In this document: in pieces, positions 16,229-20,977 of the stretch
How positions within the stretch are numbered: the stretch's first letter is position 1
How the letters are laid out: each line of letters opens with the position of its first letter
NCBI GenBank assembly: GCA_007135125.1
Contig: SLJK01000145.1
Location: 1-36,415 of the forward strand
Origin: Syntrophomonadaceae bacterium
Lineage (GTDB): Bacteria > Bacillota > Dethiobacteria > DTU022 > UBA8154
Direction: 5' to 3'
DNA length: 36,415 bases
Notes under the pieces: model-generated
The model's input: only the letters and a program-made list of their open reading frames with translations
Database searches by the model: none
Told to the model about the DNA's origin: nothing
Made by a program: the position numbers and the translations under genes

Positions 16229-17296
16229 ATGGGCATGATTGATTTTGAGATTGAAATGGAACTTTACGCCCAGATCAAAGTTATCGGTGTGGGTGGAGGT
16301 GGAAGCAACGCCGTAAACAGGATGATCGCTTCCGGGCTTAAGGGAGTAGATTTTATATCAGTTAACACTGATGCACAGGCCCTGGAACTGGCTAAATCTG
16401 GAACCAAGCTGCAGGTGGGTTCAAAGTTAACAAAAGGACTTGGTTCAGGGGGTAATCCTGAGATCGGACTGCAGGCAGCGGAGGAAAGCAGGGACGAGAT
16501 TGAGACTGTTCTCAAAGGTGCAGATATGGTTTTTATAACTGCAGGTATGGGTGGCGGTACTGGTACCGGCGCTGCTCCAACTATTGCAGAAACTGCTAAG
16601 AATTTGAACGCTTTAACTGTAGGCGTTGTAACACGTCCTTTTTCTTTTGAGGGGCGTCGCCGTATGAAACAGGCAGAGGATGGTATCGCTTCTCTTAAAG
16701 AAAAGGTTGATACGCTTATAGTCATTCCTAACGATAAGCTGCTCCAAGTTGTAGATAAACGCACCCCTTTAGTTGAAGCTTTCCGCATTGCGGATGATGT
16801 GTTGCGGCAGGGAGTACAGGGTATATCTGATTTAATCGCTGTGCCGGGCTTAATCAACCTTGACTTTGCTGATGTAAGAGCGATAATGGAAGAAAAAGGA
16901 ACTGCCCTTATGGGTGTGGGTATGGCAAATGGTGAGAATAGTGCTTTGGAAGCAGCGAAAGGAGCTATCTACAGCCCCTTACTAGAAACCTCTATTGATG
17001 GTGCAATGGGTGTTTTAATTAACATTACAGGAAGTAACAGTCTCAGCCTTTTCGAAATTCATGAGGCAGCGGAAGCAATTTCCGAAGCGGCTGATCCCGA
17101 TGCCAATATTATTTTCGGCGCTGTGATTGATGAGTCTTTTAACGAAGAGTGCCGGGTTACTGTAATTGCTACCGGCTTTGATAAACGAGAAATTTCCAAG
17201 CAAAAAAAAGAAATGGTTACTTCTAAAGAAGCTGATTTTGCGGAAACAGATATTGATATTCCTGCTTTTTTAAGACGCCGCCGTTCTAATGGCTAA
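16229..17296 (+). CDS. ftsZ: Cell division protein FtsZ
   Basis: [29 protein letters not shown] tubulin signature, C-terminal [12 protein letters not shown] conserved peptide. Confidence 0.98.
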
Positions 17297-17318
17297 AAAT
17301 TAAGTAGAAAATATTTTA

Positions 17319-17351
17319 TTAAGCTAACGGTGCTGAATGCTGTTAGCTTAA
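17319..17351 (+). terminator. Inverted repeat just after ftsZ (TTAAGCTAAC...GTTAGCTTAA), possible terminator or processing site
   Basis: 10-bp perfect inverted repeat with 13-nt loop, 23 bp after the ftsZ stop; only a weak T tract. Confidence 0.45.
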
Positions 17352-17411
17352 TTATTGTTATTCGTGAATTATATGTAAAAAAAGATTTCCCAGTAATAAC
17401 ACACTGAGAAG

Positions 17412-17441
17412 AAGGTATGGTTTAATATCCATGCTTTTTTT
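17412..17441 (+). terminator. Rho-independent terminator-like hairpin followed by T7
   Basis: AAGGTATGG-tttaatat-CCATGCTTT stem (with G-U pairs) leading into TTTTTTT. Confidence 0.6.
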
Positions 17442-17564
17442 GTGTCACGTTTCAAATCATTCTATTTCTGTTCGTTTTTCCGCAACTCTTCCTCTCTGAC
17501 CGCCAGCATTTACTTTGTCACTTAAGTTTTGGCTCGATTGTTGGAAAAATGGTTTAAGGTGGCT

Positions 17565-17592
17565 TTGCATGCTGAACAAAGTATAATATAAT
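17565..17592 (+). promoter_or_regulatory. Candidate sigma-A promoter for the ylmC operon (TTGCAT - 16 bp - TATAAT)
   Basis: -35 TTGCAT 17565-17570; -10 TATAAT 17587-17592 (overlapping a second TATAAT at 17582-17587). Confidence 0.55.
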
Positions 17593-17714
17593 GGAGTAAT
17601 AGAAGAACGTTTTTTCAAAATCTAACTGTTTTCTTGCTTTGCTCCTTTTAACTTCTGTAAAATGGAATTATAAATGGCTTTTTAACGGACAGCATATTAA
17701 AGGGGGAAAATACC

Positions 17715-17969
17715 ATGACTATCCGTATAGGTGATTTGCGTGACAGGGATGTGGTAAATATTAATGATGGAAAAAGGCTGGGGCTTATTAATGATATTGA
17801 ATTAGATGTAGAGAGCGGCACGATCAAAGCAATTATTATCCCGGGTGCAGCCGGTTTTATGGGGGTTCTTGGCCGAAAACAGGATTTGGTTATTTCATGG
17901 GAAAAGATAGTTAAAGTGGGAGTTGATACGATTCTTGTTGATTTTCATGTAGAGGATGACAACAGTTAA
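17715..17969 (+). CDS. ylmC: YlmC/YmxH family protein (PRC-barrel)
   Basis: 84 aa; RIGDLRDRDVVNINDGKRLGLINDIELDVESGTIKAIIIPG; usual downstream-of-ftsZ locus in Clostridia; strong AGGGGGAAA SD. Confidence 0.9.
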   Translation: MTIRIGDLRDRDVVNINDGKRLGLINDIELDVESGTIKAIIIPGAAGFMGVLGRKQDLVISWEKIVKVGVDTILVDFHVEDDNS

Positions 17970-18240
17970 ACTGGACATAAATCCGGGGTTGCTATATAAT
18001 GAAATGCATTCTGATGAGATAAAAAGAGAGCTTCGCAATGAAGGCTACCGCGAAGTTTATTCTGATATAATCGGGACTAAGATTTTGGGCAAACTATTTC
18101 AAATTGATGAAGTAGTGTATGTGCGTTTTGTTTCTGTATTTTATCGCTATCATAATATTGAAGTTTTAAAGAAGAGCAACAAAAATTATTTCATTTACGC
18201 AAGGCAGACATTCAGAAGAGCAATAATGGATTCCTTTTAA
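17956..18240 (+). pseudogene. NrdR C-terminal fragment: zinc ribbon and first half of ATP-cone missing
   Basis: DEIKRELRNEGYREVYSDIIGTKILGKLFQIDEVVYVRFVSVFYRYHNIEVLKK closely follows the NrdR C-terminal pattern (EIERELRNxGxREVPSxxIGExVMxxLKxLDEVAYVRFASVYRxFxDIxxF); overlaps ylmC by 14 nt. Could be an expressed small protein. Confidence 0.7.
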
Positions 18241-18247
18241 GAAAATA

Positions 18248-20131
18248 ATGGATTCCCTTAAAGAAGGTGAAAGTTTGGCCAAGGAGAATCTCCCATTCCT
18301 GGAGATTAAAAAGAGAGATGGTAGGGTTGTTTCGTTTGATGAAGGCAAGATTGCGCAGGCGATTTTTAAGGCTGCAAGAGCTGTGGGAGGAGAAGACTAC
18401 GCGCTTGCCGAAGAGATAACGAGAGAGGTAATAGCTTTTTTGAATAAGCAGCAGCTGCCCGGCCTGGTACCTACCGTAGAAGAAATTCAGGACGCGGTGG
18501 AAAAGGTGCTTATCGAAAGGGGACATGCGCGGACAGCGAAAGCCTATATCCTTTATCGGGACAAGCGAACACGTATCAGAGAGGCACGCTCTGAGTTAAT
18601 GGAGGTTGTAGGGGATATTTTATTGGAAGGCAACAATGGCGAAATCTCATTCCCATATTCTCCGGCGGGGAAAATGCATAGAATCGCTTTGGCTGCAAGC
18701 CAGAAATATTATCTTGATAATCTTCTCCCACCTGAAATAGCTTCAGCTCATCGAAGGGGGAGTTTTCATATTCACGGGCTTGGTTTTTATAGTAAAGGCT
18801 TGGGTTCTCTACAGGTTGGCCTGCAACAACTGCTTGAAGCAGGTTTGTCTAATGGAAGAGAGCCTCTGCCTGCAGACTTTTTTTCGGTTCTGCTAAGAAT
18901 AATTGTTTCATTACGAAAAAGCCAGGATGATTTGTATGATGAAGTATCTTTGCCTGATTTTGACATTGCACTGGGCGAAATTTTTCGTAGGGTTTCAGGT
19001 AAATCAGGAAGAGAAGAATTGAATAGATGTTTGGAAGGTTTTATATATCTACTGAATAATATTGCTTGTTATACAGAAAATAGTGCAAAATGTAGTATTC
19101 AACTAGGTTTGGCTACTGATGATGAAGGTAGAGAAATTACAAAACTCTTGTTGGAAGAAAGAAACATTAACAAAAAGAAAAATAGCTGGCCTCATCTTAT
19201 TTTTATTTTAAAAAAGGGTATAAACCTAATACCTGAAGATCCGAACTATGATCTTTTTAAAATGGCAGTGAAAACAGCAGTTTGCCAGGACAATCTTTCT
19301 TTTTCTATGCTAGATACTTCTTATAATAAACCCTTTGGACAGGATGTTTGTTATCATAGTAACGGGGTGCGTATAGCTGAGAACAGGCATGGTCCTATGA
19401 AAGGCATGGGAAGAGGTAATATTTGTTCCGTAACTATAAATCTACCGCAACTGGCACTAAACGCCAATCAGGAAGAAGGGTTATTTTTTGTGGAACTTGA
19501 TAGGCTGTTGCTGCTTGCTGTGCGTATGTTGCTGCATCGTTTCGAAGTTCTGGCAGCCTTGAAAGGAAGAGATCTGCCCAGTGTAATGGCTCAGAATCTG
19601 TATGCGGGTAGCAGCATTATTATGGATGGGGACAGCATTCATAGTTCTTTAAAGCAAGGGCTTATAACTATTGGTTTCACGGGGCTGCCCGAAGCAGTCC
19701 GTATGTTAAAGAAAGAAAGTAAGGAAGAGGTTGGAGTTCTGTATGAATTGGCTGGTAAGGTGGTTTTACATTTGTCACGCAGGGTAAAAAATTTTGCAGA
19801 TGAGTATGATCTTAATATTGGTCTTGGTGGAGCAGGAGACGATAAGGATTTTCGGCGACTATTAGAAATAGATAGAAATGATTTTGGAGTGTTGCCTGGC
19901 ATTACTGACAAGAAGATGTATAATGCTTCTTTTGTTCTCTTTCCGGAAGACGAAGGGCTGGAAAGGAAAATTGCCCTGGAAGGAAAAATACACAGGCATT
20001 GTTTAGCCGGACATTATAGCCGGTTGGTTTTGCTGCCGGATCTCGAGCCGGAAGCATTAGAAGAGATTCTGATTTATATGGCCAGGGCGGATATTGGATA
20101 TTTACAGGTTAAAAACCTTGGAGCTATCTAG
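18248..20131 (+). CDS. ATP-cone-containing class III ribonucleotide reductase (NrdD)-like protein, probably catalytically inactive
   Basis: N-terminal ATP-cone (IKKRDGRVVSFDEGKIAQAIFKAA...PTVEEIQDAVEKVLIERGHARTAKAYILYRDKR); NrdD-like body (HIHGLGFYS, EDPNYDLFKMA, GRGNICSVTINLPQLAL, GITDKKMYNASF). C-terminus stops at IGYLQVKNLGAI with no CxxC zinc motif or RxxGY glycyl-radical motif. Confidence 0.85.
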   Translation: MDSLKEGESLAKENLPFLEIKKRDGRVVSFDEGKIAQAIFKAARAVGGEDYALAEEITREVIAFLNKQQLPGLVPTVEEIQDAVEKVLIERGHARTAKAYILYRDKRTRIREARSELMEVVGDILLEGNNGEISFPYSPAGKMHRIALAASQKYYLDNLLPPEIASAHRRGSFHIHGLGFYSKGLGSLQVGLQQLLEAGLSNGREPLPADFFSVLLRIIVSLRKSQDDLYDEVSLPDFDIALGEIFRRVSGKSGREELNRCLEGFIYLLNNIACYTENSAKCSIQLGLATDDEGREITKLLLEERNINKKKNSWPHLIFILKKGINLIPEDPNYDLFKMAVKTAVCQDNLSFSMLDTSYNKPFGQDVCYHSNGVRIAENRHGPMKGMGRGNICSVTINLPQLALNANQEEGLFFVELDRLLLLAVRMLLHRFEVLAALKGRDLPSVMAQNLYAGSSIIMDGDSIHSSLKQGLITIGFTGLPEAVRMLKKESKEEVGVLYELAGKVVLHLSRRVKNFADEYDLNIGLGGAGDDKDFRRLLEIDRNDFGVLPGITDKKMYNASFVLFPEDEGLERKIALEGKIHRHCLAGHYSRLVLLPDLEPEALEEILIYMARADIGYLQVKNLGAI

Positions 20132-20149: not shown

Positions 20150-20977
20150 ATGGAGTTCCGCGTGGGTGAACCTTTTCAACTGAAAAAAAATAATGGAGTT
20201 GCCTATCTTTCTTATCCACCATGGGATGAAAAAAAAATTGTAGGGCATGGATTTTCTACCCGTCAGGGTGGGGAGAGTAGAGGGCCTTTTGCTTCTCTTA
20301 ACCTTGGTACGCGGGGAGGCGATAATCCGTTTTTGGTGCGGAACAATAGGCAAAAATTTTTGGCTATTTGGGAAAAGGAAATAAAGCAGCTTGTTTATGG
20401 TGAGCAAATTCATGGTATTGAAACTGCGGCAATTGGAAAAACAGATGCTTTCACAGAAAAGCATGAATACCCTGGTGTAGATGCCCTCATAACGGCAGAA
20501 AAAGATGTTGTATTAGGGGGGTTCTGTGCAGATTGCTTGCTGGTATTTTTCCTGGAACCAGAAATTCCTGTGATAGGGTTGGCGCATGCCGGTTGGCGGG
20601 GAACCTGCGGTGGCATTTTAGAAAAAGTTGTTTTTTCTATGCAAGAAAATTATGGGGCTCGTCCCGAAAACTTACAGATTCTTTTTTCGCCTTCTATAAA
20701 AGTTGGGTGTTATGAGGTTGGGGATGAAGTACTGGAGTATTTTAAATGCACTCCAAATAAAGAAGCGGTAGTTTTACAAAAAGATAAAAAGACCAGCCGC
20801 GTTTTTCTGGATATACCAGAAACTAACAGAAATGTTCTTGTGCGAACAGGGGTAGACCCTTCCCATATTACTAGCAGTAATTACTGTACGCATTGTTATC
20901 CGGATTTATTTTATTCTTTCCGGGGTGCTGGCGGAACACTTACGGGTAGCATGATGGGTATTATTTATTTAACTTAA
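20150..20977 (+). CDS. pgeF: Polyphenol oxidase/purine nucleoside phosphorylase family (PgeF/YlmD/YfiH)
   Basis: GFSTRQGGESRGPFASLNLG, FCADCLLVFF, HAGWRGTCGGILEKVV, GCYEVGDEV, YCTHCYPDLFYSFR. Confidence 0.93.
   Translation: MEFRVGEPFQLKKNNGVAYLSYPPWDEKKIVGHGFSTRQGGESRGPFASLNLGTRGGDNPFLVRNNRQKFLAIWEKEIKQLVYGEQIHGIETAAIGKTDAFTEKHEYPGVDALITAEKDVVLGGFCADCLLVFFLEPEIPVIGLAHAGWRGTCGGILEKVVFSMQENYGARPENLQILFSPSIKVGCYEVGDEVLEYFKCTPNKEAVVLQKDKKTSRVFLDIPETNRNVLVRTGVDPSHITSSNYCTHCYPDLFYSFRGAGGTLTGSMMGIIYLT

Follow-up and report, generated by a model that had tools for sequence, protein, structure and literature searches.

What sustains, beside the division gene ftsZ, an intact open reading frame (ORF) for a homolog of the class III ribonucleotide reductase (RNR) NrdD that has been stripped of its active site? 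RNRs are the central enzymes of DNA-precursor synthesis. The locus that raises the question lies in contig SLJK01000145.1 of a Syntrophomonadaceae bacterium (GCA_007135125.1), of which the whole stretch of 36,415 nucleotides (the window) was analyzed (Table 1). An earlier note had described the product, here called pseudo-NrdD, as an NrdD-like protein with an intact ATP-cone, and Pfam bears this out, recovering an ATP-cone (PF03477, 4.7e-24) followed by an NRDD domain (residues 136–621, 7.7e-67). The latter match covers profile positions 6–504 of 562, and the missing last 58 positions correspond to the radical domain. The protein starts directly with the cone, and no DNA-binding domain was matched in it by Pfam or NCBIfam. 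The start codon proposed in Table 1 is probably the real one rather than that of the ORF, because the ribosome-binding site and start AAGGGTGRTTNT-TTG are conserved in the relatives and the family profile of pseudo-NrdD begins exactly there.

Table 1. Features of the pseudo-NrdD locus in the window
Feature	Position	Strand	Remarks
pseudo-NrdD ORF	18248..20131	+	627 aa, or about 618 aa from the likely true start, TTG 18275
ATP-cone domain	18302..18571	+	residues 19-108
NxN substrate flap position	18623..18661	+	NAN in intact relatives; motif gone in pseudo-NrdD
HxHD...Cys1 region HIHGLGFYSKGLGSLQ	18767..18814	+	HxHD Asp replaced by Gly177, Cys by Ser187 (codon 18806-18808)
thiyl-radical loop YHSNGVRIAENR	19352..19387	+	catalytic Cys replaced by Asn372 (codon 19361-19363)
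triphosphate-binding loop	19832..19846	+	AGDDK in place of the TPAEG of intact NrdD
nrdR remnant	17956..18240	+	94 aa; matches only positions 85-141 of the 147 in TIGR00244
ylmC/ymxH (PRC-barrel)	17715..17969	+	upstream neighbor
pgeF (yfiH)	20150..20977	+	downstream neighbor; slot after nrdG in relatives
ftsZ	16229..17296	+	neighbor through inherited synteny

Alignment to an intact NrdD of a sister family (L021, 698 aa) reproduced the three losses that had been read by eye: the segment around the second active-site cysteine, LNCLQ in the reference, reads LGSLQ in the window protein (S187), the thiyl-radical segment YMGCRTRV reads YHSNGVRI (N372), and the protein ends before the CxxC...CxxC...RITGY stretch, with the zinc site and the radical glycine absent. 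All 19 full-length orthologs from the family share this triple loss; the thiyl-radical cysteine (C416 in the Prevotella copri enzyme, PcNrdD) is missing from every one of them, and the position of the other cysteine is occupied by Ser or Phe in the relatives. A frameshifted or detached radical domain was considered and discarded, inasmuch as a six-frame search of the entire window genome with PF13597 matched only this locus (positions 6–504) and one complete NrdD at C104. Mapping of functional residues through the P. copri structures (PMC11226230) extends the losses beyond catalysis to the NxN flap, the HxHD aspartate, the TPAEG loop, and loop 2, which leaves unsupported the binding of substrate nucleotides that the earlier note had envisaged. 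In the cone, the PcNrdD nucleotide contacts K7, R8, D9, R11, Y83, R87, and R91 correspond to K22, R23, D24, R26, Y103, R107, and R111, all of which are kept; judged by aligned residues, the ATP-cone site is the only one that keeps its binding residues. Pseudo-NrdD is thus, on sequence grounds, a pseudoenzyme, namely a catalytically dead NrdD homolog.

The activase has gone as well. As had been remarked, no nrdG adjoins the gene, pgeF starting 18 nt past its stop codon, so that the dedicated activase of an active class III RNR is missing from its side; nrdG1 is likewise missing from the locus in 13 of 13 named family records and in a sister-family locus considered below (L035), and no strong TIGR02491 hit for NrdG1 was obtained in the genomes of families f1 (that of the window) and f4 or in genome G033. 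The NrdD barrel fold, to which the NRDD match already points, is also predicted by an AlphaFold model (mean pLDDT 86, pTM 0.79), whose best PDB matches in Foldseek are the P. copri NrdD tetramer entries 8p2c/8p28 (TM 0.79–0.81, with 0.81 to 8p2c). The P. copri ATP/CTP dimer 8p23 aligns at TM 0.71, and the better match to the dATP-state tetramer entries may reflect only how AlphaFold placed the cone, not a functional state. In pyruvate formate-lyase, YfiD/GrcA supplies the radical domain in trans. A like arrangement, or a new chemistry, would leave pseudo-NrdD catalytic and would accord with the predicted preservation of the barrel, but given the loss of both cysteines and of the substrate-binding motifs, the lack of any stand-alone radical domain in the six-frame search, and the absence of NrdG1, we consider it extremely improbable.

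The gene is present in 22 of the 23 genomes of f1 and in nine of its ten genera (g1–g10); the sole genome in which no match was found (G004) is 79% complete, and in three others (G009, G015, and G020) the gene lies in pieces at contig ends. The family loci (L022–L032, L051, and L068) belong to Dethiobacter-like Bacillota MAGs. The family copies form one clade (support 100/100), and the 19 full-length orthologs, with ORFs of about 610–640 aa, are 48–59% identical to the window protein. Pairwise dN/dS between congeners is 0.06–0.15, as against 0.06–0.12 in intact NrdDs, and pseudo-NrdD thereby combines, in the manner of conserved pseudoenzymes, the loss of catalytic residues with purifying selection. 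These low values and the intact orthologs indicate that the gene is not decaying. A non-functional relic, eroding slowly after replacement by other RNRs, might be read from the flanking nrdR, which is broken in the window and lost in most relatives, from the disappearance of nrdG1, and from the faster evolution of the active-site half relative to intact NrdD; with dN/dS so far below 1, however, this reading is already largely refuted, and it is further opposed by the intact ORFs in 19 genomes and by a cone more conserved than in working enzymes, and we give it hardly any credence. BLAST/HMM placed in-frame stops in G007 and G025, but these were rejected: both loci are intact ORFs, of 641 and 574 aa, and the stops appear because the match runs beyond the ORF end. 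In several genera pseudo-NrdD is tightly coupled to pgeF, the two genes overlapping by 4 nt or lying about 5 nt apart; at two loci (L027 and L030) pgeF is absent and pseudo-NrdD is followed directly by an HlyD-like gene.

Conservation is distributed unevenly along the protein. Mean pairwise identity in the cone is 0.79 among the family pseudo-NrdDs versus 0.76 among intact NrdDs of family f3, whereas in residues 196–365 it falls to 0.42–0.47 in the pseudo-NrdDs versus 0.77–0.83 in the intact enzymes. In the pseudo-NrdD congener pairs tested, the cone has a dN/dS of 0.00–0.11 and is usually the slowest part, while in intact NrdD pairs it evolves at least as fast as the core. The ATP-cone is therefore the slowest-evolving part of pseudo-NrdD, usually so in individual congener pairs, which is the reverse of the situation in working NrdDs. 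Of the nucleotide binding that had been proposed for the protein, the part concerning ATP/dATP at the cone fits this domain-selective conservation, although the demands of folding or of a protein interface could instead account for the conserved cone.

A survey of 98 genomes of the class found full-length ORFs devoid of the radical domain only in f1, f4, and G033; several other genomes in this survey hold NrdD only partially, at contig ends. The G033 copy (locus L035, on contig C137), from a sister family, is a 659-aa NrdD with Ser in place of Cys at both sites and no radical domain, and its locus has neither nrdG nor nrdR. It has also lost the flap, the HxHD aspartate, and the TPAEG glutamate, retains loop 2 largely, and preserves the cone. 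In the tree it pairs with the intact L033 (73% identical, support 100/98; dN/dS 0.157) and not with the f1 clade, a placement that rules out one common origin of the two and makes its loss independent of that in f1. The third carrier, G025 of f4, has a Cys-less copy of 574 aa (L112) on a very long branch, and its origin may be either shared with that of f1 or separate; compared with the intact L033, its cone is 69% identical and residues 196–365 are 27% identical.

The gene neighborhood, with ftsZ, ylmC, and divIVA as the earlier note had named them, had suggested a link to cell division, and its constancy would suit a nucleotide sensor acting on FtsZ or YlmC. In sister families, however, the same slot is filled by an ordinary metabolic cluster with intact nrdD, in the order ftsZ...ylmC-nrdR-nrdD-nrdG-(pgeF). 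Since intact nrdR-nrdD-nrdG stands there, the position beside ftsZ is ancestral, predates the change of function, and offers no clue to division; we regard the proposed link as very improbable. Pseudo-NrdD is simply the ancestral nrdD still in place, with an inherited neighborhood. In the window ylmC comes directly after ftsZ (17297–17714 separating them), and the sporulation sigma genes sigE/sigG, which lie between the two in most relatives, are missing; no match to sigma-G in the window genome exceeded the cut-off (best 129 versus 457 bits), and the window lineage has probably lost sporulation. Sporulation is thus an unlikely reason for the retention of pseudo-NrdD, because the window genome keeps the gene while having no sigma-G match.

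The fate of nrdR raises a different possibility. In the window the gene survives as a remnant without the Zn-ribbon and most of the ATP-cone, which is still an open reading frame and overlaps the end of ylmC. Genome-wide searches gave no NrdR match in about two thirds of the 23 f1 genomes, and the presence of NrdR has changed about seven times on the tree; it was lost repeatedly while the adjacent pseudo-nrdD persisted, and it was not found in G033 either, an independent case. From this pattern it might be argued that pseudo-NrdD has replaced NrdR as the nucleotide-sensing regulator of RNR expression, but pseudo-NrdD has no DNA-binding domain recognized by Pfam/NCBIfam, several genomes keep both proteins, and loss of the target operon nrdDG explains the loss of NrdR more simply. 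We therefore deem such a replacement quite improbable.

A separate RNR, whose presence the earlier note had proposed to check, does exist in the window genome. Most f1 genomes and f4 have a second NrdD, NrdD2 (PRK08270 type), together with NrdG2 (TIGR02495), which presumably serves it; in the window genome NrdD2 is complete (717 aa, L116:3773–5926) and NrdG2 is encoded at C87. Directly upstream of this NrdD2 lies a weak thymidylate synthase-family ORF (L116:3030–3731, PF00303, 29 bits), an adjacency that suggests a dNTP-synthesis pair. Class II NrdJ is present in most genomes, including those of the window and G033. The NrdJ gene of the window genome (L110, on G000:C130, 3–3173) is cut by the contig start and bears an insert from CLPGDTLILTSEG to VVHNC inside the reductase domain; it appears to contain an intein. 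Inteins are probably also the cause of the open frames of about 1200 aa of intact sister NrdDs in G027, G044, G047, G067, G075, G077–G079, and G095, in which the NRDD match is split in two near profile position 150.

In none of these genomes does an ATP-cone match fall on an NrdJ locus, and the single ATP-cone match in the whole G033 genome is that of its pseudo-NrdD. Pseudo-NrdD might accordingly act as a trans-acting a-site regulator of NrdJ, its cone being lent to the enzyme as a separate polypeptide. Displacement of cones has a parallel in class I RNRs, where they are known to have moved to the NrdB subunit (PMC5794259). However, sister genomes with an active NrdD likewise have a cone-less NrdJ, and a need for trans control of NrdJ is therefore not implied; we judge this role distinctly unlikely.

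We propose, as a fairly likely explanation, that pseudo-NrdD is a pseudoenzyme descended from NrdD1 and maintained by selection throughout the family, and that it now functions as a non-catalytic ATP/dATP-responsive protein. It would have begun as the class III NrdD1 of an ancestral nrdR-nrdD-nrdG operon, passed on by vertical descent. Once anaerobic ribonucleotide reduction had passed to NrdD2 and NrdG2, with class II NrdJ at their side, NrdD1 would have lost NrdG1, both catalytic cysteines, the glycyl-radical domain, and the motifs of the substrate and specificity sites, while its barrel scaffold persisted and its ATP-cone hardly changed. Binding of ATP or dATP at the cone may then shift the protein to another conformation or oligomeric state, and that new state may control a partner or sequester something. 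The PcNrdD cone offers a model for such a switch, the enzyme being a dimer with ATP and a tetramer with dATP (PMC11226230). Of the candidate partners, the cone-less NrdJ is the most specific. That a class III RNR gave rise on at least two occasions to a free-standing subunit that senses nucleotides and acts in trans, for instance as the missing ATP/dATP switch of NrdJ, is a bolder idea that we consider possible, if rather unlikely; if true, pseudo-NrdD would be the first regulatory pseudoenzyme among bacterial RNRs.

Pseudo-NrdD lacks the defining features of both an active class III RNR and NrdR and carries the sequence features of ATP-cone proteins and conserved pseudoenzymes. It is homologous over its whole length to the class III NrdDs with an ATP-cone (P. 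copri 8p23/8p28; Streptococcus thermophilus 9d3x), with the same predicted fold and the same cone, including every nucleotide-contact residue, but without either cysteine, the Zn/glycyl-radical domain, the flap, the HxHD aspartate, the TPAEG loop, or a partner nrdG. The ATP-cone transcriptional repressor NrdR, which works through nucleotide-dependent oligomerization (PMC12176259, PMC9110341), is likewise a non-catalytic cone protein, but it has an N-terminal Zn-ribbon DNA-binding domain where pseudo-NrdD has an RNR barrel. The class I NrdB of Leeuwenhoekiella blandensis (PMC5794259) is a precedent for a cone that acts from outside the catalytic subunit, but there the cone is fused to the radical-generating subunit, whereas in pseudo-NrdD it is joined to a catalytic barrel that is dead. 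The betaherpesvirus homologs of the RNR large subunit, viz., MCMV M45 and HCMV UL45, have also lost activity and been kept for another role (PMC5469499, PMC11772975); these are viral, of class I type, and act in host signaling, whereas pseudo-NrdD is a bacterial class III protein with an allosteric cone in its ancestral operon position. Our search of the open-licence PMC literature found no bacterial NrdD pseudoenzyme.

These observations suggest that an enzyme of DNA-precursor synthesis has been turned into a nucleotide sensor. Its allosteric module has outlived catalysis through the history of a whole bacterial family and, independently, in another lineage. This natural experiment, with the ATP-cone under selection but the enzyme that it normally regulates absent, makes it directly testable whether an RNR scaffold bearing an ATP-cone can sense nucleotides, and what such a sensor would act on.
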